A stretch of DNA of 39,958 nt from Draconibacterium orientale (GTDB lineage: Bacteria; Bacteroidota; Bacteroidia; Bacteroidales; JAIFNL01): contig DZBP01000010.1 in assembly GCA_022729915.1 (NCBI GenBank), positions 1 through 39,958 on the forward strand, read 5' to 3'. The notes beneath the pieces were generated by a model, which was given only the letters and a program-made list of their open reading frames with translations, ran no database searches and was not told where the DNA came from. The position numbers and the translations under genes are program-made. Below are positions 22,373-39,687 of this stretch, piece after piece. Within the stretch, counting starts at the first letter, position 1. Each line of letters begins with the position of its first letter.

Positions 22373-22475
22373 TAAGCACCCGTGCTATTTTATTTTGAGC
22401 AACCATTTTTGTAATCAAATAATTTTTAAGCACTTGGTAGAATGAAATATGCAATTAAATTTGGTTCACTACTTA
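22373..22475 (+). repeat. 103-bp dispersed repeat, copy A
   Basis: taagcacccgtgctattttattttgagcaaccatttttgtaatcaaataatttttaagcacttggtagaatgaaatatgcaattaaatttggttcactactta. Confidence 0.9.
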
Positions 22476-22687
22476 ACTATTTATCAATACCTAAAATTAA
22501 AAGATAAAGAACCAAAATTTTAGAGCAAATAATTTTCAAATTAAAATAAAATGTTTAATTTTACTCATTATTTTCATGCAAAGAGTCAATAAATATTTAT
22601 TTATTCTTCAATTTACTGTTTATCACAACTTTATATGAAAAAATAATTTTAAAATTTTGTAGCAATACTAATTTTTTTAAAGAAAAA

Positions 22688-24070
22688 ATGGACGAAAAAC
22701 AACAAAAATTAGAACAATTTATTCGCCAAATATTGGAAATTCAAAATAAAGAAAAATCACCCATTCTAAAAACGAACGACTTGAAAAACATTGTTTTAGA
22801 AATGGGAATGACTGAATCTGACTGGCAATTGATTTCTGACACATTCAATGGGCATGCTTTGCGTGGAAAAGGCTTTTTAGAATACAAAAACTGGGAAGAT
22901 GCAATCAAGGAATTTGAACAAGCGCATACTTTAAATCCTTATAATACAGACATTTTGTACGGATTGGCATTGGCTCATAAAAACTTATGGCATCAAACAA
23001 ATATGTCGTCGCACAAAGCCAGTGCCGAGCAATATGCTAAAATGTGCATCAACATCAATCCACAATATAAAGAGGCAATTGCTCTGATTTCTGAAATTAA
23101 AGTGGCTAAAAATCAAAGTGTTAATTCAAATCAAGCAAAGCAAATAAATTCAAATGAAACTTTGCAAACTACTCCAGTAAAAAATCAAAAACTAGTAATT
23201 ATCATGGTAATTTCTATTTTTATTGCAATTTTTTTTATAGGTATCTTTTTTCTTTTAAATCAATCTAGCGATGCAGATTTACAAGAACCAAGTAACTCTT
23301 ATTCAGAGTTAAAAGAACCTGAAGTAACAATCCCAAATGAAGATATTTCAGAACCACAAATACCTGTAATTTTTGTTGAAAATGAACAATCAAAAGGCTT
23401 GAAATTTATTTTAGATAAAATACAAGCCGACGATTATACAACTTCATACAACGTGAGCGCGAAAGGTTATTTTAAATTGGAAAATATTGAACTAAACGAA
23501 TTAAAAATAAAAGCGGATTTGTTGAATAATGAAGACAAAGTTGTTAGTACGAAAATAATAGAACTGGCGCGTGAGTCGAACAATACGTTGCGAAGTGGCG
23601 ATTTATTGCCTTTTGAGTTTAGTAACTATGAAGAAAACAGCGCGTTACCTCAATTCAAAGCCCTTAGGCTAGCGGTTAGTTATATAGTAAAACAAGAAAG
23701 TAATTTCAAATACGAAGCTTCAAAATCAAAACCTATAAATTGGGCTATTGAAAAACCTACGAATTTTGATATTTCGATTAGAGAGCGTTTGAGCAGTGTT
23801 TCAAAACAGTTCTCTACCGGAATTTTTCACCAGATAGTACTTGAAATAGAAAACACTGGCAACTCAAACATAAAGGTTCTTCAAATTCAAATAGTATGGT
23901 TTGACAAAAAAAATAAGCTGGCAAAAACAGATGAATTTTACATTACCACCGATTCTTACGCACCAATAAAAAGAGGTGATATTAGAATTTACGACCGAAT
24001 GTTTGGTGTTGATAATTTGAATTTAGAGAATTATAAAAGCTATGAAATCAATATTTTAGCAGTAAATTAG
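22688..24070 (+). CDS. TPR-containing single-TM protein with C-terminal Ig/FxLYD-like domains
   Basis: TPR-like helices (GKGFLEYKNWEDAIKEFEQAHTLNPYNTDILYGLALAHKNL), TM LVIIMVISIFIAIFFIGIFFLL, beta-rich C-terminus. Confidence 0.75.
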   Translation: MDEKQQKLEQFIRQILEIQNKEKSPILKTNDLKNIVLEMGMTESDWQLISDTFNGHALRGKGFLEYKNWEDAIKEFEQAHTLNPYNTDILYGLALAHKNLWHQTNMSSHKASAEQYAKMCININPQYKEAIALISEIKVAKNQSVNSNQAKQINSNETLQTTPVKNQKLVIIMVISIFIAIFFIGIFFLLNQSSDADLQEPSNSYSELKEPEVTIPNEDISEPQIPVIFVENEQSKGLKFILDKIQADDYTTSYNVSAKGYFKLENIELNELKIKADLLNNEDKVVSTKIIELARESNNTLRSGDLLPFEFSNYEENSALPQFKALRLAVSYIVKQESNFKYEASKSKPINWAIEKPTNFDISIRERLSSVSKQFSTGIFHQIVLEIENTGNSNIKVLQIQIVWFDKKNKLAKTDEFYITTDSYAPIKRGDIRIYDRMFGVDNLNLENYKSYEINILAVN

Positions 24071-24166
24071 CACAAAACAGTTGTTTGTATTTTATAAAAA
24101 AAGCAAAATTCAATAATTTAAAGAAAACAATAAAAACAAATTATTTAACAGCTTAACCAAAGTATA

Positions 24167-26794
24167 ATGAAATTTAAGTATTTATTTATTACATTAATTA
24201 TTCTTTCTAATATTAATTTATTTTCACAAAACAAGTTACAAAATTTAGGAAGCTCTGTAAATTCTAAATTTAGCGAAACGCAGCCTATCATTTCGCCCGA
24301 TGGAACAGAGCTTTATTTTACTAGAAGTAAGAACAGTAGCCGCGACGACGAAGATAGAGATATTTATGTTTCAAAAATATCGAAAACAGGAATTGCTTCT
24401 GGTGCAAAATTGCTCAAAGGTGAATTGAATAATGATGGTTGGAATGCCGTTTGTGGTTTCACTGCCGATGGAAAAACAATGCTTTTAGCCGGAAAATATA
24501 TGCCCGACGGAACTCTCAAAGGTGGATTTTCTACTTCTATAAAAGACGAAAACGGAAATTGGCAAACGCCTGCTCCCATCGTAATGAAAGGTATGACAAT
24601 TGATTACGAAACTCAAACAGCTAGCATTAGTGCCGATGGTAGTGTGATTATTTTTGCTAGCAATATGCCTTTTGGAAAAGAATTTTACGGGCTTTTCGAT
24701 TTGTACATTAGTTTTAAGCAAGAAAATGGCGAGTGGTCTTATCCTAAAAATCTTGGAAAAGCTATAAATTCAACGGCTTACGAAACGGCACCGTTTTTGG
24801 CAGCCGACATGAAAACACTTTATTTTTCATCTGACGGACATACAACTTTGGGCGGAAACGATATTTTTGTTAGCCGAAGAATCGACTCAACATGGACAAA
24901 TTGGAGTTTGCCCGAAAATTTAGGTTCGATTGTAAATACCACTAATTGGGAATCGTATATTTCAGTAACTGCTTCGGGAAAATATGCTTATGTAGGTTCA
25001 ACTAATAAATCTTTAGGTAAAATGGATATTTTTAAAGTTGAGCTAAAGCCAGAGCAAAAACCTGTTGACGATGGTTTGCTTGCTTTTTATTATCAAGGAA
25101 TGATTAAACCTAAAACAAATCATGTAGTTGTAGTTGAAAAAATAGAAATAAAAGAAGTAAATATCAATTTAAATGATGAAAATATAGAAAAAAATGACAT
25201 TACCAAAATTGTAGAAAAAACGGACAAAGCTGAAATAACAGAAAAAGGAATTATTAACCAAGAGGTTGAAACTGTTGAAGCAAAAAAATATACAAGCAAC
25301 GTAATTCCGCTAAATTTAAAATCAACAGGAAAAGCTATAAAGCTCGAAAACTTGGGAACTTTAGTTAATACGGAACTTTCTGAGATGGCTCCTTTGATTT
25401 CTCCCGATGGAAAAACGCTGTACTTTTCGAGAAGTCTGGCTTCGGATTGGAAAAATTTGAACCGCAATATTTTTGTCGCAAATTTAGATGCCAGTGGAAA
25501 TTGGCAATCGGCGCAAAATGCCGGAAAAAGCTTGAATAACAATGGTTGGAACATTGTTTGTGGCATAACTCCTGATGGAAATATGGTACTTCTTACCGGA
25601 AAATATAAGTCGGACGGCACTTTGGGTGGTGGATTTTCAAAAGCGTATTTGACCAAATATGGCTGGAGCCATCCACGTCCGTTAGAAATTGAAAAGTTTC
25701 CAGAACAAGAAGATACTCAATCAGGTACATTAAGTCCAGATGGAAAGGTAATTATTTTTTCGAGTTATTTTAACATTGATGGCGAGTTTTACGGAACGAT
25801 GGATTTGTACATTACTTTTGAAAAGTCTGATGGTACGTGGACTGTTCCTCAAAACATGGGACCCGATATAAACTCGACACAATATGAAACGTCTCCTTTT
25901 TTAGCAGCAGATGGCAAAACCTTATATTTTTCTACCAATGGACATGGCGGGTACGGAAGCCAAGACATTTACGTAACCAAGCGCTTAGATGAAACTTGGA
26001 AAAACTGGTCGAGACCCGAAAATATTGGAGAAGAAGTAAATACTGAAGATTGGGAATCGTATTTTACAGTTTCGGCAGCTGGTGATTTTGCCTATGTTGG
26101 CTCACGAAAAACAACTTTTGGCAAGATGGACATTTTCAAAATTGATTTGAGAAATACTGTAAAACCCGAACCTACTATCATTGTTTCGGGTGAAGTACTT
26201 TCGGCAGAAAATAACCAAGCCATTGCTGCTACAATTAAATACATGTCGCTGAATGACACCTCAATAAACGGAGCCGCCAAAACAAATCCACTTACCGGAA
26301 AATATCAAATAGCTCTTACCACCGGGCATATTTACGGTTTTTTTGCCGAAGCTGAAAATTATTATGGTAAGCATGAAAACATTGACCTCAAAAATCTGGA
26401 AATTTACGACGAAAAAAATGTTACACTTTTGCTAACTCCTTTTAAACAAGGGCAAGTAATGGAGTTGAACAATATTTTCTTTGATATAGGAAAAAGCGAA
26501 TTAAAGCCCGAATCGTTTCCAGAATTAGATAAATTAGCCAACATTTTACTTCAAGACCCATTGGTTGTTATTGAAGTGGGCGGGCATACAGAAATAGGGC
26601 ATTCGGACAAACAACTATCGCAAGACAGAGCCAATGCTGTAAAAAAATATCTTATTGAACATCACAAATTGAGTGAAAAGCGAATAAAAGCAGTAGGTTA
26701 TGCCGATACTCGTCCTAAAACTAGCTCTACAAATACTGACAAACGTGCTCAAAACAGAAGGGTTGAAGTAATTATTTACAAAAAGGACGAATAA
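24167..26794 (+). CDS. OmpA-family protein with two tandem PD40/WD40-like propeller domains and a carboxypeptidase-regulatory-like domain
   Basis: PIISPDGTELYFTRSK and PLISPDGKTLYFSRSL start two paralogous halves; CRD-like VSGEVLSAENNQAIAATIKY; OmpA-C NNIFFDIGKSELKPESFPELDKLANIL...RIKAVGYADTRP. Confidence 0.93.
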   Translation: MKFKYLFITLIILSNINLFSQNKLQNLGSSVNSKFSETQPIISPDGTELYFTRSKNSSRDDEDRDIYVSKISKTGIASGAKLLKGELNNDGWNAVCGFTADGKTMLLAGKYMPDGTLKGGFSTSIKDENGNWQTPAPIVMKGMTIDYETQTASISADGSVIIFASNMPFGKEFYGLFDLYISFKQENGEWSYPKNLGKAINSTAYETAPFLAADMKTLYFSSDGHTTLGGNDIFVSRRIDSTWTNWSLPENLGSIVNTTNWESYISVTASGKYAYVGSTNKSLGKMDIFKVELKPEQKPVDDGLLAFYYQGMIKPKTNHVVVVEKIEIKEVNINLNDENIEKNDITKIVEKTDKAEITEKGIINQEVETVEAKKYTSNVIPLNLKSTGKAIKLENLGTLVNTELSEMAPLISPDGKTLYFSRSLASDWKNLNRNIFVANLDASGNWQSAQNAGKSLNNNGWNIVCGITPDGNMVLLTGKYKSDGTLGGGFSKAYLTKYGWSHPRPLEIEKFPEQEDTQSGTLSPDGKVIIFSSYFNIDGEFYGTMDLYITFEKSDGTWTVPQNMGPDINSTQYETSPFLAADGKTLYFSTNGHGGYGSQDIYVTKRLDETWKNWSRPENIGEEVNTEDWESYFTVSAAGDFAYVGSRKTTFGKMDIFKIDLRNTVKPEPTIIVSGEVLSAENNQAIAATIKYMSLNDTSINGAAKTNPLTGKYQIALTTGHIYGFFAEAENYYGKHENIDLKNLEIYDEKNVTLLLTPFKQGQVMELNNIFFDIGKSELKPESFPELDKLANILLQDPLVVIEVGGHTEIGHSDKQLSQDRANAVKKYLIEHHKLSEKRIKAVGYADTRPKTSSTNTDKRAQNRRVEVIIYKKDE

Positions 26795-26798
26795 AGAA

Positions 26799-27422
26799 TT
26801 ATTCCAATTCGCCAAGTCCTTCGCGCAAAATATTTATTTCACCTTCCGAACAATCAACAATGGTAGAAGGAATATTTCCACCATAACCACCGTCAATTAC
26901 GCAATCGACAATGTTTTTATATTTTTCGTAAATTAATTCAGGGTCGGTTGCATATTCTACCATCTCATCTTCGTCGTAAATAGACGACGAAAGAATGGGA
27001 TTACCCAAAGCATTTACTATTTCGCGCACAATTTTGTTGTTTGGAATGCGAATTCCGACTGTTTTTTTCTTACTTTTAAAAAGTTTTGGCACTTTTTTGC
27101 TGGCATTTAGTACAAAAGTAAAAGGTCCTGGCAAATTTTTGCGCATAACTTTAAATACATCATTATCAACCTGAACTGCATAATCAGACAAATGACTCAA
27201 ATCGTAGCAAATGAATGAAAAATTTGTTTTTTCCAAATTCACTCCTTTTAGTTGAGCTACCTTTTCAACCGCTTTCGGGTTGTTTATGTCGCAACCCATA
27301 CCATAAACCGTATCGGTCGGATAAATAATAATGCCACCTGAACGCAAAATATCAGCCACTTGATTAACTGTTTTTTCGTTCGGATTTTCTTCATAAAGTT
27401 TTAAAAATAAAGCATTTGCCAT
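26799..27422 (-). CDS. Sua5/YciO/YrdC family (threonylcarbamoyl-AMP synthase-like)
   Basis: GGIIIYPTDTVYGMGCDINNPKAVEKVAQLKG, PGPFTFVLNASKKVPKLF, VGIRIPNNKIVREIVNALGNPILSSS. Confidence 0.93.
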   Translation of the reverse strand: MANALFLKLYEENPNEKTVNQVADILRSGGIIIYPTDTVYGMGCDINNPKAVEKVAQLKGVNLEKTNFSFICYDLSHLSDYAVQVDNDVFKVMRKNLPGPFTFVLNASKKVPKLFKSKKKTVGIRIPNNKIVREIVNALGNPILSSSIYDEDEMVEYATDPELIYEKYKNIVDCVIDGGYGGNIPSTIVDCSEGEINILREGLGELE

Positions 27423-27447
27423 TTTAAGTCCTCCATTTTGTCATTTT

Positions 27448-27550
27448 TAAGCATCAGTGCTTTTTTTATTGGAGCAAATCTTTTTGTAATCAAATAAATT
27501 TTAAGCACTTGGTAAAACGAAATATACAATTTATTTTGTCTTAGTACTTA
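27448..27550 (+). repeat. 103-bp dispersed repeat, copy B
   Basis: taagcatcagtgctttttttattggagcaaatctttttgtaatcaaataaattttaagcacttggtaaaacgaaatatacaatttattttgtcttagtactta. Confidence 0.9.
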
Positions 27551-27582
27551 CATATTTTTTTAACAAAAAAAATTTGCGCTAG

Positions 27583-30453
27583 TTAGATTTCTTCAGTTCT
27601 TTTAATTTTATATAAACTATTTTTATTTATTTTGTGAAATTTTCCAAATTTTTTGAGAATTTTCACATCAAAATGCTTTGGATTTCCAACTAAAGCAATT
27701 GTAATTGGTTTAGTTTTGATGTTTTTCTCATAAAAATTGTAAATCTCATCAAAAGTAATATTTTTGTATTGTTCTAAAAGTGCTTTTGCAGGGTCTTCTT
27801 TGTAACCTTTAAATTCCAAAATATCAATAGTTTGGGCTAGTTCTCTAAAATGTACCGAATTTGTTACCGAAGAATTAATAAGATAAGATTTTATCATATC
27901 CATTTTTTCGGGTTCTTTGGGCATATTTTTAATCAAATCGAGATAAACTTCTATTGCTTGAATCGTTTTTTCGCCTTGAGTTTCTATCGAACCTAAAAAT
28001 TTCACTCTCTCATCGGGGCGCAAAGGCACGGAAAGAGCTCCATCAACGGAATAAGCAAGAGAGCGTTTTTCGCGTATTTCTTGCATTAGCAAACCACTAA
28101 AACCTCCATCAAAATATCGATTGAACGTATGTATTACAGCTATTTCGTCCAAATTTCGCTGGTTAATGTCCATAAAAAACAAAATTCGAGATTGATTTGT
28201 TTTTCCGAATTCAGTAAAAAAAACAGTGTCTTCACTATAATTTACATAATCATTTTTTACTGGCGATTCTGACGGTTTTTGATTCTTTTTGGGTGAAAAT
28301 AAATCGGTAATCAATCGCTGTACTTCTGTTTTAGAAGTTTCGCCTACAAAATAGTATTCTTGCTTATATTTTATGGCTTCTTTAAAAATTTCAATAAATT
28401 GTTCGCTCGAAATGGCTTTTATTTCTTTGTCTTTGTATCGATTGATGTAGGGCGATTTTTCGCCATTTAACACAAAGCTATTCAATGCGTTGAAAACATC
28501 TTCTGGCTTCTTGCCTTTTACTTTGTTCTCAGCTTTCAAATCTTCGTACAAAATATCGAGCTGGTCGTCGTCGAGAACAGGATTTTTGAGCAAATGTGCC
28601 AATAATTTCAATGCTTTTTTCAAGTTTTTTTCAATTCCTTCGAGGTAAACAGTCAAATAACTGTTGCTAGTACTAAAATTGTAAGTACAGCCAATTTTAT
28701 CGAATTCTTCTTTCAACTCATCGAGGCTTAACTCCTCTGTACCAGCATAGTTCATCAATGTACCAGTATATTCGAGCAATGGCATTTTTTTAGTGCCTAT
28801 GCCAAAATAAATGGTAAGCTCAAAAATATCGTTTATCGGATTATTAGTATAAAAAAAGGTAGATTCGCCTATTTTCGTTCGTTGTATATCATTCTGAAAA
28901 TCAATAAATTTTGGATTTAATTCCTCAACTTTAATTTCCTCAATAGCTTTTGCAAATTCAGATATTTCGTTTGAATTTGAATTGATTGCATTCATTTTTT
29001 TAGAAGATTTTTTTTTCTTGGCAGGAAAACCTACACGCGAATAAAAAGCCAGATAATTTTTTCCGAAATAAGCATTCGCTACCCGCACAATCTCTTTTTT
29101 AGTAATTGCCATTATTTCTGAAGGTAACTTGCTGATTTGCTGAATATTTCTATTTTCAACAAAAGCCTCGGCAAGCATTAAACCTTTGTTGCTAACATGC
29201 TCTAGCGTAGTTAGATAATTTCGATAAACTTCGTATTTTACAGCATTGAGCAACCAATCTGGAAAATCGCCTTTTTTGAGTTTCTCTATTTCGGCAAGTA
29301 CTAAATTCTCTGCACTTCTTAGAGTTTGTCTCAAAATTTTTGGCATTGCATAAATCGTGGCTTGCCCATAATCTTGGTAATTGTACAACGAAATATCCGC
29401 ATTAAGTATCTTATTATCAATTCGTAACTTATCAAACAAACCGGTTTCGTTTTCGTTGGTCAAAATCCCTGTAAGTACCTCAAAAACAGTTTCGTCAGGG
29501 TGTCCACATTTAGGTGCTCTAAATCCGAGCATTGCATATCTGATTGGACTCATGCGCACCGAAGCAAATTCTCTTCCTTTAAAATCTTTTTCGATATATT
29601 GTTTACTTTCAGGTATTTGAGCTGATTTTAATTTCCCGAAAGTATTTTGAATCATTTCCAACGCTTTTTGAGTGTCAAAGCCACCTGAAAGGCTCAAAAC
29701 CATATTATTAGCTACATAATAGGTATTGAAAAACTCATACATTTTCTTAAGTGAGGGTTTCTGCAAATGCTGCGTGCTACCTAAAATGGACGCTTGCCCA
29801 TAAGGGTGAACCTTGAAAAAACGCTTGTCGTATTCTTGCATAATGCGTTCATTTTCAGAATCTGCCGCCATGCTTTTTTCTTCCAAAACCACTTCCATTT
29901 CGGCTTGAAATGACCGAAAAACGGGTTCGGTGAATCGATGTGCATTTACTTCCAACCATTTAAATAACTGATTAGAAGGTAGTGAGCTGTAATAAATTGT
30001 ACTTTCAAAACTAGTGTAAGCATTGATATTGAAAGCACCCATTTTGCGCAAAACGGTATTAAACTCATTGCTTATTTCGTATTTTGAGGCATTAACAGAA
30101 ATATTGTTGATGGATTCAACAATGAGTTCTTGTTCTTTTTTTGTTTTTGCGGTTTGTAGTTTTTCAAAATTTTCGACTATTGAATTGATAAAAGGCTTCT
30201 CTTCTAGCCAATTGGTTGTGCCCAATTGAGTAGTTCCTTTGAACAACATATGTTCTTGGTAATGAGCCATTCCGGTAGCTGATTCGGGGTCATTTTTTGC
30301 ACCCACTTTAATACCAATAGCTCCAAAAATTTCCGAAGTATTGTGGTCTTCGTTCAAATAAACGGTAAGTCCGTTTTCTAAAACCACTTCGGTAACTTCT
30401 ACTCCTGATTTGATTGATTTTCCTGAAAATAAACTAAATTTATTTTGCTTCAT
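27583..30453 (-). CDS. M16 family (insulinase/pitrilysin-like) zinc peptidase
   Basis: Inverted zinc motif HYQEH in ATGMAHYQEHMLFKGT; second half with RSLAYSVDGALSVP-type R/Y motif. Confidence 0.93.
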   Translation of the reverse strand: MKQNKFSLFSGKSIKSGVEVTEVVLENGLTVYLNEDHNTSEIFGAIGIKVGAKNDPESATGMAHYQEHMLFKGTTQLGTTNWLEEKPFINSIVENFEKLQTAKTKKEQELIVESINNISVNASKYEISNEFNTVLRKMGAFNINAYTSFESTIYYSSLPSNQLFKWLEVNAHRFTEPVFRSFQAEMEVVLEEKSMAADSENERIMQEYDKRFFKVHPYGQASILGSTQHLQKPSLKKMYEFFNTYYVANNMVLSLSGGFDTQKALEMIQNTFGKLKSAQIPESKQYIEKDFKGREFASVRMSPIRYAMLGFRAPKCGHPDETVFEVLTGILTNENETGLFDKLRIDNKILNADISLYNYQDYGQATIYAMPKILRQTLRSAENLVLAEIEKLKKGDFPDWLLNAVKYEVYRNYLTTLEHVSNKGLMLAEAFVENRNIQQISKLPSEIMAITKKEIVRVANAYFGKNYLAFYSRVGFPAKKKKSSKKMNAINSNSNEISEFAKAIEEIKVEELNPKFIDFQNDIQRTKIGESTFFYTNNPINDIFELTIYFGIGTKKMPLLEYTGTLMNYAGTEELSLDELKEEFDKIGCTYNFSTSNSYLTVYLEGIEKNLKKALKLLAHLLKNPVLDDDQLDILYEDLKAENKVKGKKPEDVFNALNSFVLNGEKSPYINRYKDKEIKAISSEQFIEIFKEAIKYKQEYYFVGETSKTEVQRLITDLFSPKKNQKPSESPVKNDYVNYSEDTVFFTEFGKTNQSRILFFMDINQRNLDEIAVIHTFNRYFDGGFSGLLMQEIREKRSLAYSVDGALSVPLRPDERVKFLGSIETQGEKTIQAIEVYLDLIKNMPKEPEKMDMIKSYLINSSVTNSVHFRELAQTIDILEFKGYKEDPAKALLEQYKNITFDEIYNFYEKNIKTKPITIALVGNPKHFDVKILKKFGKFHKINKNSLYKIKRTEEI

Positions 30454-30629
30454 GCCAATATAAAATTGCTTGTAAATACTACAAAATCAAAATGCTTTTA
30501 TAGAAAATGAATTTGCAAAAATAGTGTATTTAAAAACGCTATCAAAATATTGTTTTGATAAAATGGGTGCTACATTCTATTTTAAAGTTGACTAATACTT
30601 TTGATGTAAAATCAATTTCAATTACTTGC

Positions 30630-30732
30630 TAAGCACCAGTGCTATTTTAATTTGAGCAAACCTTTTTGTAATCGAATAGATTTTAAGCACTTGGCAAAAC
30701 GAACTATACAATTTAATTTGGTTCGTAGCTTA
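30630..30732 (+). repeat. 103-bp dispersed repeat, copy C
   Basis: taagcaccagtgctattttaatttgagcaaacctttttgtaatcgaatagattttaagcacttggcaaaacgaactatacaatttaatttggttcgtagctta. Confidence 0.9.
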
Positions 30733-31384
30733 AAACTCATTATTCAAACAATTATAGTTCATTATATCAGCTAATTGGTTGCTTAAAAAAACTAAAATTG
30801 AACTAAATTAAAAGCAAAAAAAGTTTCAATTTTTCAAATAGAAGTGATAAATCAAAGAATGAACAGATTTATTAAGCATTTATAATAAGGTAGTTAGAAG
30901 TATATTTTACCAAATTTGAAATAAATTGATAATGTTGCAAAAATTTGGCAAAACCATGGAAAAGTATATTGGTATTTTATTTTATTTTTAAAGTTTTTTT
31001 TTATGTAAAAAATAAATATCTTTAGCTAAAAATAATATCTACATATAAATACCGAGCGATTTCTAACACAATTTGCATTAAAAAAATATATATCTAACTG
31101 ATTTCAGGTAATTTAATTTTGAAAAAATAAAAAACAAAAAAACTTAAATTTAGCATTTTTTAGTACAATTTTATCGAAAAAAAATTGTTTTATTTGTATT
31201 AAAGTTTTAACTTTGTAGTCAATCAATCAATGTTCTATAAGTTTTTTTTTACCAAACTACTTTTTTAAAATAATGCCAAAGTATTAAAAAAAGCTTTGTC
31301 ATATTTTATATTTAGAACACGCTCTATATGAATATATTTTGTATATTTTGTTATTAAAGTATTATGGTATAAATAATTTAATCT

Positions 31385-33385
31385 ATGTCGAAGAAAACCA
31401 TACTTAGCGTTGTCATTAGTTTACTTGCAATTAATATGCTTGCACAGTATTCGCCAAAATGGCACAAAACAATTGGTACTCAAGGTAACCAAATAGCTGA
31501 ATCTATACTGCAGATTAGCGATGGAAATTATTTGCTTGTTGGAAATTCAAGTACTCAAAGCAACAGTAATTCAGATACTTACAGCCCATACAATTCTAAA
31601 CTAATGCTAGTGAAGCTAGACGAAAAAGGTAATAAAGTATGGGAAACACTCATCGGGTTAGGAAAAAATAATTTCGGAAACTCTGCCGCCGAAACTCACA
31701 ACGGCGATTTTATAGTAGTGGGTGCAAGTAACGATAAAAATGGCGGAATGCACGATTTATGGGTAGTGCGTGCAAACACTAACGGTGAATTTTTGTGGGA
31801 ACAAAAATTTGGAGGTGCTGGTTTAGACGAAGCTTACTGCATAAAAAAGACAAGTGATAGTGGGTTCATTGTTTCTGGTTTAACCGAATCGAAAGGAAAC
31901 GGTGATGCCGATATGTGGGTTTTACGTTTCGATAGATGGGGCAAGCTACTTTGGGACAAAACCTATGGTGGCGCTGGATACGAAGAAGCCCGCTCAATTA
32001 TTGAAACTGCTAATGGCGATTTTATTGTTGCTGGCTGCACAACTTCTGGTGGTGAAGGCAAAAAAGATATTAATTTAATTCGGGTAAATGCTTCTGGCAA
32101 AGAAATTTGGAATAAAAAATACGGTTACGAATACAATGACCTTGCACGAGAGGTAATAGAAACAAGCAATGGCGACATTCTACTGGTTGGTACTTCTGCA
32201 AGCAACGGAGGCCAAAAAACAAATTCAATAGCAATAAGAACCGACTCGAAAGGAGAAGTAATTTGGGAAAAACAATTTGGCAAAACTAACAGAAACATGG
32301 CTTACTCAGTTGTTGAATTGCGCAACAATGAGCTTGTTATAGCAGGTTCTACCTCATCAATCGAAACAGGTTATGACGTTCAATTGATGGTTTTAGATCA
32401 ATTTGGCGACGAAGTTTGGCAACAAGTTTACGGTGGCATTCGATGGGATGAGGCTTTCAGTATCATACAATCTGATGAAAATGTGCTATTTACAGGTTAC
32501 ACAAAGTCTTATCTTGCCAACCAAAGCGATATTTGGACATTTATGCTTGAGCCCGACATTACTCCTCAACAAATTGAAAGTCCGGAGATAATTCCTGCCG
32601 AACAAATTTTTGCCGATGTAGATGATAATATTCCTCAAAGTATTATGAACGGACGCAATACAGTAGCAGTTATTATAGGTATTGAAGATTATAAATATAC
32701 TACAAAAGCTAAATTTGCTGCTCACGATGCTACTATTTTTTACAAATATGCAAAATCTGTTTTTGGCATAGCTGATGAAAATATTCTACTTCTGACGAAT
32801 GAAGAAGCCACAAGCGCTGAATTCAATAAAGCTTTTTTGGAAGGCGGGTGGTTAGAAAGCAAAGTGGATTCAGCCACTGAAATTATTATTTATTATGCTG
32901 GACATGCCGTAACGGACAATAACCCAAGCATTAAAGAGGCTTACCTTGTTCCTTCAGATGTAGATCCAAACTATGCCGATGTGTCGGGTTTTGGAATTAA
33001 TGAGTTGGTAAATTCTTTAGGTAAATTAGGCGCAGTTTCAAGCACCTTGTTTTTTGATGCTTGCTACACCACTATTGCAGGAGAGCTTGCTTACAGAAAT
33101 GTAATAAACCCCAAAACACTGTACAAAGCAAATACCAGTATTCTTTTTGCTACCGATAAAGACGAACCTGCTATTCCTTTTACAAATCAAAACCATGGTT
33201 TGTTTACTTATTACTTGCTCAAAGGTTTATCGGGCGAAGCCAATGGAAGCGATAATAAAATAACTATTGGTGAGTTGCATCAATATGTGAGAGCAAATGT
33301 GAGCTATCAATCGAAAATTTTAAAATCAGAACAAACTCCTCAAATTTACTCTGACCAAAAAGGTAAAGTTTTGGTTGAATTCTAA
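31385..33385 (+). CDS. Secreted beta-propeller plus caspase-fold (peptidase C14) protein
   Basis: Signal peptide; about six repeats of type GDFIVVGxxx...DLWVVRxNxxGExLWEQKFGGxxxDEA; C14 domain VAVIIGIEDYKY, catalytic-His-like IIYYAGHAV, catalytic-Cys-like STLFFDACYT. Confidence 0.92.
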   Translation: MSKKTILSVVISLLAINMLAQYSPKWHKTIGTQGNQIAESILQISDGNYLLVGNSSTQSNSNSDTYSPYNSKLMLVKLDEKGNKVWETLIGLGKNNFGNSAAETHNGDFIVVGASNDKNGGMHDLWVVRANTNGEFLWEQKFGGAGLDEAYCIKKTSDSGFIVSGLTESKGNGDADMWVLRFDRWGKLLWDKTYGGAGYEEARSIIETANGDFIVAGCTTSGGEGKKDINLIRVNASGKEIWNKKYGYEYNDLAREVIETSNGDILLVGTSASNGGQKTNSIAIRTDSKGEVIWEKQFGKTNRNMAYSVVELRNNELVIAGSTSSIETGYDVQLMVLDQFGDEVWQQVYGGIRWDEAFSIIQSDENVLFTGYTKSYLANQSDIWTFMLEPDITPQQIESPEIIPAEQIFADVDDNIPQSIMNGRNTVAVIIGIEDYKYTTKAKFAAHDATIFYKYAKSVFGIADENILLLTNEEATSAEFNKAFLEGGWLESKVDSATEIIIYYAGHAVTDNNPSIKEAYLVPSDVDPNYADVSGFGINELVNSLGKLGAVSSTLFFDACYTTIAGELAYRNVINPKTLYKANTSILFATDKDEPAIPFTNQNHGLFTYYLLKGLSGEANGSDNKITIGELHQYVRANVSYQSKILKSEQTPQIYSDQKGKVLVEF

Positions 33386-33426
33386 CATCTAGGCTTAAAA
33401 AAAGTATTGTCCATTTTCTAAATATA

Positions 33427-33460
33427 AAAATTGCCAAAGTAAAAATACTTTGGCAATTTT
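33427..33460. terminator. Bidirectional intrinsic terminator between convergent genes
   Basis: AAAATTGCCAAAGTA-aaaa-TACTTTGGCAATTTT, perfect 15-bp stem between genes ending at 33385 (+) and 33465 (-). Confidence 0.9.
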
Positions 33461-33464
33461 GTTT

Positions 33465-34649
33465 CTACAAAAGGTTTAAATATATTTTAAACAATTCAGA
33501 TTCTTCATTTTCCCAATTGTACTCAAGTGCAGCCTTTTCTAAATTCTGTTGCCAAAGTTTGCGCTTCGGCAAATTAGTTAACATTTCGTTCAAAGCCCAA
33601 ACAATTTGGTCATTATCAAAGCCTTCTATACTGATTCCTATTTCATACTTATTCATTATGCTTTGCATTTCCGGCAAATTGGAAATCAAAACGGGTATTT
33701 GAGCTTTTATATAGTCAAATAAACGATTGGGAAGTGAAAAACGATAGCTCAGACCTCTATCTTCAAACAAACTAATACCGACTTGAGCCAACTTTGTATA
33801 TTCAAGTAATTGATTGAAAGGCACTTTTCCAATAAAAATTACTTTTGACTGCAAATTCAAATCCTCTACCTCTTGCATTAATTCTTTGCGAATATCGCCA
33901 TCGCCAATTATCAGAAAAACAGCATCTTCTATCAATTGCATTGCTCTAATGACGTATTCGACTCCTCGCCCCACGTTCAACGCTCCTTGATAAAGAATTA
34001 TTTTTTTGTCTTTTAAATAATGTGGTATTTCAATTTGCGAATCTATAATTTCTTTGGTTGGAAAATTGCGAACTACTTTCATTTCAATTCCGTACAACCT
34101 TTGGTATTCATTGGCAATGGATTGGCAAACAGTGTATGAATTTTTAACTCTGGGTAGAATAAATTGTTCTATTTTAAGCCAAATTTTGCGCACTTTTCGC
34201 CCGATGAGTTCGGGTACTTCGGTAAAATATTCGTGAGAATCGTAAACCAATTTTTTTTGTCGGAATGCTGAGGCAAGATAAACGGGAAGTAGAGTATCTA
34301 AATCATTAGCTACAAATACATTAGCTTTAGAAAAAAGCAAATAAAAAAACAACTTGAGATTGTATTCGGCATAAAATAATGGTCCTTTTCTGAAAAATAG
34401 AAATAAACGAAAAGTTTGGTAATCTCGTGCTTCCAAGCGCGCCGAGCGTTGAAACTTTGCGCCGACTAAACAGACTTTAAAGCCTTGATTAAAAAGAGAT
34501 TGGCACACTTTATTCAGTCTTTGGTCTGAAATTAAATTGTTAGTAACTGCTAAAATTATTTTTTTATTTCTTTGCATTTTTTTTTGAACAAACAACTGAA
34601 CGCTTAATTGAATTTTGCAACAAAAAAATAAAAAAAATACGGTTTTCAA
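33465..34649 (-). CDS. Glycosyltransferase family 4/1-like (GT-B)
   Basis: IILYQGALNVGRGVEYVIRAMQLIEDAVFLIIGDGDIRKEL, SYRFSLPNRLFDYIKAQIPVLISNLPEM. True start may be the internal ATG of MQRNKKIILAV. Confidence 0.9.
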   Translation of the reverse strand: MKTVFFLFFCCKIQLSVQLFVQKKMQRNKKIILAVTNNLISDQRLNKVCQSLFNQGFKVCLVGAKFQRSARLEARDYQTFRLFLFFRKGPLFYAEYNLKLFFYLLFSKANVFVANDLDTLLPVYLASAFRQKKLVYDSHEYFTEVPELIGRKVRKIWLKIEQFILPRVKNSYTVCQSIANEYQRLYGIEMKVVRNFPTKEIIDSQIEIPHYLKDKKIILYQGALNVGRGVEYVIRAMQLIEDAVFLIIGDGDIRKELMQEVEDLNLQSKVIFIGKVPFNQLLEYTKLAQVGISLFEDRGLSYRFSLPNRLFDYIKAQIPVLISNLPEMQSIMNKYEIGISIEGFDNDQIVWALNEMLTNLPKRKLWQQNLEKAALEYNWENEESELFKIYLNLL

Positions 34650-34686
34650 AAATAATTTTTACTTTTGGTGTTTAATTAAACTAATT

Positions 34687-34785
34687 AAAGTACAAGTGCT
34701 ATTTTATTTGGAACAAACCTTTTTGTAATCAAATAAATTTTAAGCACTTGGCAAAAAATATACATTAGATTTGGTTCTCTATTTA
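34687..34785 (+). repeat. 103-bp dispersed repeat, copy D (about 4 bp shorter)
   Basis: aaagtacaagtgctattttatttggaacaaacctttttgtaatcaaataaattttaagcacttggcaaaaaatatacattagatttggttctctattta. Confidence 0.85.
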
Positions 34786-34838
34786 TTTTAGAAAAAAGAA
34801 CCGAACTTTTAGCTTTTTAACTTTTTAATAATAAATTT

Positions 34839-36479
34839 ATGCAAAGAATAGTTTTATTTTTTTTAATAGGAACACTTGTTTTTGTGTTTTCGTGCCAAGA
34901 AATTTCAGAGAAATTAAGTTCAAAATCAAAACAAAATGAAAATGTGGAGATGGAAAGCGATGAAGAAGAATATGAAGACCTTGATTCGACTGAAATAAAT
35001 GAAAGTAAACAACTTAGCTTTCATGAAGAATTGTATGGCGAAAAAAATAAAGACACTAGCGAAATCTACCAAAAACTTAAAGTAGATGAATTTAACAACG
35101 AAATAGCTAAATTTATAGCTGGTTTAGAGTCAGAAAAATACAAAGAATTGCAAAAAAAGCCTTTTTACGAAACGCACAAATCGAACATAACGCAAGCTTG
35201 GGAAAAAACTGAAGGTGAAGATTTAGAGCCAATTACACGTTGGACTCGCGAAAACCAAATCGCTGGAAATCCGAATTACGAATCGACTGTATTTTATCCA
35301 TTTTCGGGTCCGGATATTTTGTATGCCAACGCATTTTTTCCGTTCGCAAAGAATTATGTACTTGTTGGTCTTGAGCAAATTGGAAGCCTTCCACACATCG
35401 AAAGTCTGTCTGCTGAAATGCTCAATGAATATTTGACCGGAATTCGCGCTTCGCAACGCTACATCAACAAACACGGCTACTACATGACCAAACACATGCA
35501 AGAAGATTTTTCTAAAACCGAACTCAACGGAACGGTTCATCTAATATTGTACTATTTAGCACTCACTAAACATCAAATACTTGGTGTTGAGGAAATTGCG
35601 CTGGATAATTACGGAAATGTTACCGAAAAAAAACTAGGCAATATTAGAGGCGTAAAAGTAGATTTTGCCAACGAAGATTTAAAAAATAAACAAACGGTTT
35701 TCTACTTTAAACTAGATTTGTCGAACGAAAATATTGAGAAAAATCCGGGTTTCTTACGTTTTTTAAGCAACCAGTTTGATTTGAATACTTACATGAAATC
35801 AGCATCTTACATTTTGCACGATTCGCATTTTAGTACGGTTTGTAATTTTGCATTAGACAAAAGCATAAAAATTTTGCAAGACGACACGGGCGTGCCTTTT
35901 TACAAATTTAAAAATTCTACCTTTGATTTGACTTTTTTTGGGAAATATACCAGCACCATCAAAGATTTTAAAAATCATTATCAACCTGAATTGAAAAAAG
36001 CCATTGATGCACAAGAAGTTGCACACGAACTGCCTTTTATAGTTGGTTATAGTTCGTGGTTGGGCGAAACTTTGTTGATTTATGCCAATAAATCGAAAGA
36101 TTCCGAAAACGATGAAGAAGTTTTAGCTCAAAACAATGAAAAAAAGGAAATTACTAAAAAAGAAGTTAAAAAGAAAGAAGAAACAAAATTGGTAACTAAA
36201 ACCGACAATCAAGAGCGAAAATTGGTTTATAAAGTTCAGATTTTATTTTCGTCACGTTATTTCAAAGAAGGTTCGCCCGAATTTAAAGGACTCAAAAACG
36301 TTGGTTATTACCAAGATAATGGTGCTTACAAATACACTATTGGAAATGAAACAAGTGCCGAAGATTGTATAATGCTTAGAAAAAAAGCCCAACAAGCTGG
36401 TTTTGAAGATGCTTTTATTATTGCACTTTTCGATGGAAAACGTATTAGTTTGCATCAAGCAAAGAAAATAAGCAACTAA
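34839..36479 (+). CDS. Putative lipoprotein with C-terminal SPOR-like domain
   Basis: Lipobox-like LIGTLVFVFSCQE; acidic linker; C-terminal LVYKVQILFSSRYF...YKYTIGNETSAEDCIMLRKKAQQAGFEDAFIIALFDGKRI resembles SPOR-type repeats. Confidence 0.7.
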   Translation: MQRIVLFFLIGTLVFVFSCQEISEKLSSKSKQNENVEMESDEEEYEDLDSTEINESKQLSFHEELYGEKNKDTSEIYQKLKVDEFNNEIAKFIAGLESEKYKELQKKPFYETHKSNITQAWEKTEGEDLEPITRWTRENQIAGNPNYESTVFYPFSGPDILYANAFFPFAKNYVLVGLEQIGSLPHIESLSAEMLNEYLTGIRASQRYINKHGYYMTKHMQEDFSKTELNGTVHLILYYLALTKHQILGVEEIALDNYGNVTEKKLGNIRGVKVDFANEDLKNKQTVFYFKLDLSNENIEKNPGFLRFLSNQFDLNTYMKSASYILHDSHFSTVCNFALDKSIKILQDDTGVPFYKFKNSTFDLTFFGKYTSTIKDFKNHYQPELKKAIDAQEVAHELPFIVGYSSWLGETLLIYANKSKDSENDEEVLAQNNEKKEITKKEVKKKEETKLVTKTDNQERKLVYKVQILFSSRYFKEGSPEFKGLKNVGYYQDNGAYKYTIGNETSAEDCIMLRKKAQQAGFEDAFIIALFDGKRISLHQAKKISN

Positions 36480-36594
36480 TTTTGAAACTTTTGCTTAGCT
36501 TTATACTCGATTATTTTTTGTAAAAATTTATTGTTGTATAGCAATTATTTTGTATCTTTGCTCTTAGGTTTTTATATGGAGTTTTTATACTTTA

Positions 36595-36644
36595 TAACCA
36601 CTAGGTAAAACTAAGCATACAACTATTTTTGGTAAACCTACTTA
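36595..36644 (+). repeat. Degenerate right-half copy of the 103-bp repeat (F)
   Basis: taaccactaggtaaaactaagcatacaactatttttggtaaacctactta aligns with taagcacttggtaaaacgaaatatacaatttattttgtcttagtactta of copy B. Confidence 0.55.
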
Positions 36645-36672
36645 ATGTTTAACTTTTTTAAAATACGATTTA

Positions 36673-37041
36673 ATGAAAAACCTTATTTTGTTTTTATCTA
36701 TTTTATTTTTAACAGGTTGCGCACAGAAGCGGCTATCGGAACATAAAATAGAACAAGGAGGAATTCCTTACACTAAAGTAAACCGAAACGGAATTAGTTC
36801 GGATTACAAAAATCAGAATTTCGTTTGTTCTGACTCTCACAAGAAAATAAGAAAATCAAAGCGAGCTATCAAAGAATTATCAGATATAGGCTGGCTTTAC
36901 ACAAATCCTGATAATGGCGGTTTTGAGCCGATTAAAAAAGAAAAAAAATCAAAGCGCGCCAATAAAAAATCATCAAACACAGGTTGGATTTATACAAGTC
37001 CCGAAACTGGTGGTTTTGAGCCTATTTTAAAAGAAAATTGA
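36673..37041 (+). CDS. Small lipoprotein with tandem 31-aa repeat
   Basis: MKNLILFLSILFLTGCAQKR lipobox; KSKRAIKELSDIGWLYTNPDNGGFEPIKKEK then KSKRANKKSSNTGWIYTSPETGGFEPILKEN. Confidence 0.75.
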   Translation: MKNLILFLSILFLTGCAQKRLSEHKIEQGGIPYTKVNRNGISSDYKNQNFVCSDSHKKIRKSKRAIKELSDIGWLYTNPDNGGFEPIKKEKKSKRANKKSSNTGWIYTSPETGGFEPILKEN

Positions 37042-37220
37042 AAAAAAAGGATTGTTAAGGCTTAATGAATACGTCCTATTTTGCAAACAATTGATACTAT
37101 GGCTTTCGGTTCGTTAAAATAAACGTATTCGGATATTAGGATACAAACGAATTTCAAACATTTACTTGGTAAATTTATATGAACAAAACTGTACGAGATT
37201 CTATATTTTTATAAAAAACT

Positions 37221-39440
37221 ATGAAACAAAAAATACTTTTTATCCTTATTCTTTGCCTATCTTCTGTTATTACAGCTAATGCGCAAAGTGTAGAATTAAC
37301 GCAAGAAGAGATAAGAAAAATAACCGACTTTGAATTCATTTATCCTTTTAGCGAAAAACTTTCCAAAGTAATGGGGCAAGGCAAATGGGGTTATATCAAT
37401 TATGGTGGCGAAACCAAAATACCTTTGAAATATGACGATGCAGGTTCATTTATTTACGGAGTTGCACGTGTGAGGCAAGGTGCAAAGTTTTCAGCTATTG
37501 ATTTTAATGGAAAACAAATCATGCCTTGGTTTGATTATGTGTATCCTTTTTACAATGGGTTGGCGAAGGTAAAAAATAGAAACGAAGTTGCATTTGTTAC
37601 CAAAGAAGGAAAATTTGCATCAACTTGGTTTGATGATGCTCAAGTGTTTTATTATGGTTTGTACAAAGTAAAAAAAGGTCGCAAATGGGCATTTATGGAC
37701 AAAAACGGCAAAGTTGTTACTCAATGGTACTTCAACCCTGACACTTTGACGGCAAAAGTAAAATTTGACCTTACTTACTCCTACGACCAAACTAGCAAGG
37801 TGGCATTGTTTAATGAAAAAGGTCAACGGATTACCGAACAATTTCCTGGAGTTTTTTTTACGCATAGTTTTGGAAATGCTTCACTTTTCGATTCGCTCAA
37901 GTTTGATAAATATTTAGCTGTTTCAGAACACGGGCTTTACACCGAAAATATTTCGATGGTTAAAAATAAAGACGGAAAATATGCTTTTATTAACGATGCC
38001 GGAACACAAATTTCGGAATGGTACGTGAAAGCCGAAAATTTTTACGAAGGAATGGCTATGGTTATGAAAGCTGAAGGGAAGATGGCATATTTAGGCATTA
38101 ATGGAAAACAAGTTACTCCTTGGGTGGAACGAGTGCACCCCTTTTTCAATCGTTTGGCGATGGTCGAAAACAATAATAAATTTGCTTTTATTGACAAAAC
38201 AGGCGAGTTAGTAACCGATTGGTTCGACTACGCGAGTCCATTTTCTGATGGTTTGGCAAAAGTTAGTTTGAACAAAAAGTGGGGATACATCGATAGCAAC
38301 GGAAAACTTGTAATTCCGCTAATTTACGACGATGCCATATCGTTTTCGTATGGCTTTGCTCGTGTGGAATCGGAAGGTAAGCAATTAGTAATCAACAAGA
38401 GTAATAAAGTTTTGCATGGTGCTTTCGATTATATTTATCGTTTTACCGATTCCATAGCTGCTATTCAAATAGATACACTTTTTGCTTACATCGACCAGAA
38501 AGGTGTGCGCATAACACCTTGGTTGCAAGGAGCTTCTGATTTTACTTACGGCATAGCACGCGTGAGGCTCAACAACAAAGTGGCACTCATCAATAACAAT
38601 GCAAAAGTAATAACACCTTGGTACGAAGTAGCTTACTTTATTCCTCCCCACATTGTATTGGGCGACACGCTGCCCAATGGAAAATTGGGACGATACATTT
38701 TGTTCGATTTGTACAAATACGACAACTTCTTTAATAAATATCCATCGACATTTAATTACGACAATTACACCGAAATGGCTTGGAACTACACCGATAGAGA
38801 GCCCAATATGAGCTGGAACGATGGCTTTTTCAAAGAAGGAATTCAATTAATGTACAAATCGAAAGACGATAAAGTAGGAATAGATAATTTTGAATTAATG
38901 GTGCTTGCCGATTACAACGGCAAACCTATTTCGGCTTGGTACAATTCAGTTTACAAATCCGAAGATGGTTACTTAATGGCTCAAAAAGGTGAAAAATTTG
39001 TAATGATAGATGTATATGGAACAGAAATTTCGCAAGAATATGAGGGAATTTATTACCACAATGTGGATACTTTACTGGTTAAGCATGAGGATAAATTTGC
39101 TTTTATTGATAGAGACCAAAAATTTCTGACACTTTGGTACGAAGAAATTGGCGATTTTGTAGAAGGTTACAGTGTAGTAAAGCTAAACGGCGAATATGCT
39201 TTAATGGCTTCTGATTTTAAAGTTATTTCGGGTTGGTACGAATACATGGATAATTCTTTTACATACCAAATGCGTCGTGTAAAAAAATATGGAAAGTGGG
39301 GAGCAATCGATAATTTGGGTTTTGATGTAGTAGATCCGGTTTATGATGAGGCTGACTTTATTAACGGTTTGCTCAGAGTAAAAAAAGAAAAAGACACGTA
39401 TCTTTTCGATTCAAATAGAAATTTAATAAGGATAGAATAA
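37221..39440 (+). CDS. Secreted WG-repeat protein
   Basis: Signal peptide; many WG-type units such as KWGYINYGGETKIPLKYDDAGSF, KWGYIDSNGKLVIPLIYDDAISF, KWGAIDNLGFDVVDPVYDEADF. Confidence 0.92.
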   Translation: MKQKILFILILCLSSVITANAQSVELTQEEIRKITDFEFIYPFSEKLSKVMGQGKWGYINYGGETKIPLKYDDAGSFIYGVARVRQGAKFSAIDFNGKQIMPWFDYVYPFYNGLAKVKNRNEVAFVTKEGKFASTWFDDAQVFYYGLYKVKKGRKWAFMDKNGKVVTQWYFNPDTLTAKVKFDLTYSYDQTSKVALFNEKGQRITEQFPGVFFTHSFGNASLFDSLKFDKYLAVSEHGLYTENISMVKNKDGKYAFINDAGTQISEWYVKAENFYEGMAMVMKAEGKMAYLGINGKQVTPWVERVHPFFNRLAMVENNNKFAFIDKTGELVTDWFDYASPFSDGLAKVSLNKKWGYIDSNGKLVIPLIYDDAISFSYGFARVESEGKQLVINKSNKVLHGAFDYIYRFTDSIAAIQIDTLFAYIDQKGVRITPWLQGASDFTYGIARVRLNNKVALINNNAKVITPWYEVAYFIPPHIVLGDTLPNGKLGRYILFDLYKYDNFFNKYPSTFNYDNYTEMAWNYTDREPNMSWNDGFFKEGIQLMYKSKDDKVGIDNFELMVLADYNGKPISAWYNSVYKSEDGYLMAQKGEKFVMIDVYGTEISQEYEGIYYHNVDTLLVKHEDKFAFIDRDQKFLTLWYEEIGDFVEGYSVVKLNGEYALMASDFKVISGWYEYMDNSFTYQMRRVKKYGKWGAIDNLGFDVVDPVYDEADFINGLLRVKKEKDTYLFDSNRNLIRIE

Positions 39441-39472
39441 ATAAAAACTTGCTGACTAAAAATGTTCAGAAG

Positions 39473-39550
39473 TCATCTGATGAATTTTCAATTGATTTTT
39501 TTAAACGAAGAATCAAATTCAAAAATTCAATTAAACGATTCATCAGATGA
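39473..39550 (+). terminator. Putative long-stem terminator downstream of the WG-repeat gene
   Basis: TCATCTGATGAAT (39473-39485) / ATTCATCAGATGA (39538-39550), nested A/T pairing inside, followed by an interrupted T-rich stretch (ttaactttttttattt). Confidence 0.6.
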
Positions 39551-39584
39551 TTTAACTTTTTTTATTTAGACAATCCGTACAGCT

Positions 39585-39687
39585 TAAGTAGTGAACCAAA
39601 TTTAATTGTATCGTTTATTTTGCGAAGAGCTTAAAAATTATTTGATTACAAAAATGTTTGTCCCAATTAAAAGAGCACTGGTGCTTA
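39585..39687 (-). repeat. 103-bp dispersed repeat, copy E (inverted)
   Basis: Reverse complement: taagcaccagtgctcttttaattgggacaaacatttttgtaatcaaataatttttaagctcttcgcaaaataaacgatacaattaaatttggttcactactta. Confidence 0.9.

Follow-up and report, generated by a model that had tools for sequence, protein, structure and literature searches.

In the portions of the literature drawn on here, RUP of pneumococcus is a 107-bp, AT-rich, intergenic repeat with ∼110 copies per genome, TA termini, and target duplication, and IS630-Spn1 has been proposed to mobilise it in trans (PMC3049150, PMC2229807). ERIC/IRU of enterobacteria measure 127 bp, with TA termini, a 7-bp inverted repeat, and target duplication, while Correia/NEMIS of Neisseria (∼105–155 bp) have TA termini and putative internal promoters (PMC2229807). 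The same portions of the review give no parent IS for bacterial repeats besides RUP (PMC2229807).

The 103-bp element described here is closest to RUP and ERIC in size and behaviour and, as far as our tests reach, unrelated to them in sequence. It resembles RUP in size, AT-richness, intergenic location, and TA termini with duplication. RUP, however, has another sequence and belongs to another phylum, and its accounts describe a 9-bp inverted repeat and a known parent IS whose ends match; for our element no parent was found, and the inverted repeat of the commoner subfamily is weak. ERIC/IRU differ from it in sequence and length, and the excerpts that treat them describe no TTG-N19-TAnnTTTG motif and leave stop-codon polarity unmentioned. 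Correia/NEMIS are characterised there by a 24-bp inverted repeat, an IHF site, and divergent promoters, whereas the present element is unrelated in sequence and its motif points one way, outward. REP/REPIN sequences with RAYT genes are alike in forming hundreds of short extragenic repeats per genome that differ between related species; in contrast to them, the element is without a REP-type palindrome, targets TA rather than single-stranded DNA, and coexists with a sole Y1 transposase tied to another repeat.

The window, by which we mean the whole stretch of 39,958 nt that was analysed, comes from a 3.5-Mb genome of an uncultured member of the Bacteroidota (G000; 299 contigs, 83% complete). Five copies reported in a first-pass annotation, four of 103 bp and one of 99 bp, were recovered independently at the same positions. 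They were also described as intergenic with matching boundaries, and indeed all five lie between genes, start TAAGCAC-like, and finish CTTA-like; they align end to end, and the flanks beyond TA...TA are unrelated. Two right-end subfamilies are distinguished, v1 (GGTTCACTRCTTA; 144 of 186 copies, the commoner) and v2 (TTTTGTCTTAGTGCTTA; 42 of 186). The features, as read from the sequence, are as follows.

22373..22475, + strand: copy 1, full 103-bp element with v1 right end (GGTTCACTACTTA)
22427..22475, + strand: right half of copy 1, from the internal TAAGCAC
22434..22463, + strand: promoter-like motif of copy 1, TTG-N19-TAAATTTG, pointing out of the 3' end
27448..27550, + strand: copy 2, 103 bp, v2 right end (TTTTGTCTTAGTACTTA)
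30630..30732, + strand: copy 3, 103 bp, v1
34687..34785, + strand: copy 4, 99 bp, with small internal deletions
39585..39687, − strand: copy 5, 103 bp, v1, inverted
Elsewhere in G000, L074 6284–6332, L182 15920–15968, and L128 19512–19560: solo right halves with clean TA-type boundaries

A possible extra fragment of the element, weak and decayed, lies at 36587–36633 of the window (E = 0.006). Full copies are absent from the first 22 kb, as had been noted, but this gap has no evidential value, since by our own arithmetic (∼290 copies in 3.5 Mb, or one per 12 kb) the chance of such a gap is ∼16%. Among other observations, two pairs of similar segments, 6109–6225/13521–13637 (83%) and 4828–4919/13236–13327 (82%), flank the 5–13 kb part of the window; they represent a local duplication, and little like them occurs in the rest of the sampled genome. 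A predicted protein at 31385–33385 combines a caspase-like (Peptidase C14) domain with a PQQ/ASST-type propeller. On contig C22 of G000 (L142 442–3530), a 505-codon gene with an ATPase-like motif (APRQTGKST) at the N-terminus is present in tandem as two 1,520-bp copies without a single difference, which are either a real duplication or an assembly artefact.

A 26-base core of the element, with up to three mismatches, matched 214 times in the 3.5 Mb of G000, 107 times on each strand, whereas the reversed pattern used as a control gave 0 matches, which excludes chance for the repeat family. The genome-wide search that the first-pass annotation had proposed thus extends the family beyond the window, to at least 214 copies. 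An HMM found 195 copies in 1.56 Mb of G000 contigs (∼45% of the genome), a raw density that is too high because these contigs were partly picked for holding copies; in 20 consecutive contigs the density was just 43 copies per Mb. Scaling the HMM count by the core count, we estimate a total of ∼286–290 copies.

The element (consensus TAAGCACCAGTGCTATTTTAATTGGAGCAAACCTTTTTGTAATCAAATAAATTTTAAGCACTTGGCAAAATGAAATATACAATTTAATTTGGTTCACTACTTA) is non-coding and has sharp TA boundaries and a fixed length of 103 bp, both TAs included. The ends of v2 form a perfect 7-bp inverted repeat (TAAGCAC/GTGCTTA); the terminal inverted repeat of v1 is weak, with only TAAG-A matching between TAAGCAC and the reverse complement TAAGTAG. 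The v2 consensus is predicted to fold, with its ends paired, into a closed three-way junction (z = −4.0), the v1 consensus folds no better than shuffles (z = −0.69), and the element of a congener, G001, gives z = −3.2. The right half alone (48–49 bp, from the internal TAAGCAC to the end) also occurs elsewhere in G000 with clean boundaries, and either deletion between the two TAAGCAC repeats or transposition of the half on its own would explain these solo halves. In another congener, G002, a 48-nt relative of the element is a near-perfect hairpin (z = −5.5).

Our first search for relatives used a G000-specific core and missed most of the family, and the full consensus was used afterwards. G001 (JAIFNL01 bin_9), whose proteins are ∼82% identical to those of G000 (median of 67 reciprocal best hits), holds at least 40 copies (187 candidates). 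All of them are close to 103 bp long; their ends are conserved, and the middle has diverged from the G000 version. When 84,980 species genomes were scanned with a DNA pattern, a set that may leave out the window's own genome, the only assembly matched was ‘Bacteroidetes bacterium isolate bin_9’ (JAIFNL01). The search of the order covered 393 genomes: two from other families (G161 and G085) each contain a full-length relative (77–80%), with an additional partial match in G085, and G286 contains a fragment. No match to the element came from viral contigs, plasmids, or phages, nor from Rfam at gathering and permissive thresholds, and a literature search for the motif TAAGCAC found no relevant paper. 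None of the named families fits, in line with the initial failure to recognise one.

We consider the element very probably a family of MITE-type non-autonomous DNA transposons with TA target duplication. It is shorter than 200 bp, non-coding, and dispersed in many copies with fixed ends; terminal inverted repeats are present (the perfect 7 bp of v2), and TA target duplication is indicated indirectly. The family newly adds to the TA-type MITEs of Bacteroidota and is apparently undescribed.

The boundaries T/AAGCAC and GCTT/A are seen in ∼90% of copies. Bases 1–3 outside the TA are 92–95% A/T on the left flank and 83–97% on the right, with the fourth base at 70% and 68%, respectively. The 5'-end TAA of 28 copies terminates an ORF of 60 codons or more. 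Duplication of the TA of a pre-existing TAA stop requires an A directly behind the right TA. This base was A in 21 of 25 such copies, compared with 384 of 909 TAA stops in general (42%; p = 2e-5), and the difference from other copies was also marked (p = 4e-4). An orthologous empty site in G001 has a single TA, in agreement with this, although aligned empty sites and nested copies fit TA duplication only to within 1–2 bases. The check for target-site duplications and empty sites suggested at the outset thus favours duplication of a 2-bp TA, as judged from the stop-codon test and the symmetric WWW-TA-WWW target. Zero target duplication, an idea taken from two nested copies, was dropped after the stop-codon test.

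We also found evidence of mobility. Of 32 orthologous gene junctions between G000 and G001, 8 contain the element: 7 in one species only (two of these resting on weak, decayed G000 matches of 16 and 22 bits) and 1 in both species, where the two copies point in opposite directions. Another site (G001 L223, G000 L143) appears common to both species and decayed, which would make the family older than the species split. Three copies sit within other copies, and the most similar copies are 98–99% identical (median nearest neighbour, 92%). The proposal of a MITE-like mobile element is therefore borne out by TA boundaries, an A/T-rich target, species-specific and nested insertions, and near-identical recent copies.

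Each copy has the form TA-AGCACcaGTGCT...-TA, and the flanking TA represents the target after duplication. The AGCAC / RCT ends would be cut by a transposase acting in trans, probably a TA-targeting DDE enzyme such as IS630/Tc1-mariner, and the element would insert into AT-rich WWW-TA-WWW sites; only copies between genes would survive. Because the first base behind the duplicated TA is A, an element that enters a TAA stop would recreate it, and insertions at stop codons would persist.

The transposase with similar ends that the first-pass annotation had suggested looking for was not found. IS630 (DDE_3) and DDE_Tnp_1 transposases are absent from the whole G000 assembly (83% complete), and the 1.56 Mb examined at the DNA level (∼45% of the genome) contains no longer element with matching ends, no parent IS with the same ends, and no visible multi-copy IS. 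The absence of a parent IS is not disqualifying for a MITE, since some known MITE families lack one. Pairs of inverted left ends at L077, L084, L096, and L105 were considered as long elements and rejected, as they enclose ordinary host-type genes. G001 has two DDE_3 genes, on contigs C142 and C235, neither of which carries an exact match to the left end of the element, and G161 has DDE_3 fragments.

Insertion relative to genes is strongly polar. With stricter gene calls, which are simple ORFs rather than curated genes, the 5' end faces a gene end in 73 cases, 23 of which place it exactly on a stop codon, compared with 2 of 57 for the 3' end (p = 2e-5); within 20 bp of a stop codon, the counts are 38 and 10 (p = 5e-5). 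This 5'-end excess is present in both tandem (16) and convergent (7) gaps. G001 shows 1 case for each end among 34 copies, a small sample. A plain TA target does not predict the polarity, since the target is near-symmetric and most copies would recreate TAA at either end. Selection against antisense transcription into the gene end may be one reason why the 3' end hardly ever adjoins a stop codon. True directional targeting, in which the mobiliser or host selection sets the 5' end on TAA stops in one orientation, with the stop restored and the promoter motif pointing off the gene, is a tentative reading that we regard as unlikely.

The spacing of TTG-N18-20-TAnnTTTG is that of the published Bacteroidota promoter form, and its TAnnTTTG part appears in the literature. 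This motif occurs in the 3' half of G000 copies 31 times in sense and once in antisense (n = 157), in G001 copies 14 times and 0 times (n = 29), and in G000 tandem intergenic DNA outside the elements 34 and 5 times, respectively. Through this predicted promoter, copies could drive transcription of the DNA 3' of them. We also regard it as unlikely that an old MITE family has had its members co-opted as portable promoters or gene-end signals, with a distribution that reflects function more than transposition. Such an origin would accord with the outward motif (20% of G000 copies, about half of those in G001) and with the strong stop-codon polarity of the 5' end, but it is weakened by a motif frequency that is independent of what the 3' end faces (19 of 91 for gene starts, 11 of 57 for gene stops; p = 1.0).

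We think it improbable that the element is REPIN- or PATE-like, moved as single-stranded DNA by an HUH (Y1) transposase (RAYT or IS200/IS605 TnpA) that recognises end hairpins and leaves no target duplication. The 5'-end hairpin AGCA-CCAG-TGCT, the foldable right half, and the near-perfect hairpin in G002 are compatible with this mode of movement, which could yield polarity by being directional; the congeners' species-specific populations are reminiscent of REPINs, and a Y1_Tnp protein is encoded in G000. However, this RAYT-type gene, the only one in G000 (contig C245, L124 1–2043), is surrounded by a separate GC-rich palindromic repeat, CGTAGGGCGTTGCCCTACG, and its 2-kb locus holds no copy of the 103-bp element, so that no RAYT gene is flanked by the element itself. 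RAYT/Y1 was accordingly rejected as the mobiliser; the gene and CGTAGGGCGTTGCCCTACG apparently constitute another repeat system, of REP type. The TA duplication test and symmetric WWW-TA-WWW sites favour a double-strand TA target, and the consensus has no evident GTAG/CGTC-tagged REP palindrome.

A cis-regulatory or small RNA element (a riboswitch, a terminator, or an sRNA) conserved by selection at each site, also raised in the first-pass annotation, is largely refuted and very improbable: the stable predicted folds of v2 and the congener element and a 5' end adjoining stop codons would suit it, but relative to tandem flanking genes neither orientation is preferred overall (38 to 33; with a second gene caller, 55 to 37, or 39 to 35 without the stop-codon copies), and copies occur in divergent and convergent gaps too and occupy sites mostly unshared between G000 and G001, while the commonest consensus folds no better than shuffles and Rfam has no match.

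For a TA-type MITE family, sister populations in two congeners make insertion dynamics directly readable. The 23-to-2 polarity and the outward motif make it testable whether such elements rewire transcription and how tightly packed genomes tolerate hundreds of insertions. Directional targeting, if true, would be a built-in way to insert without damage.
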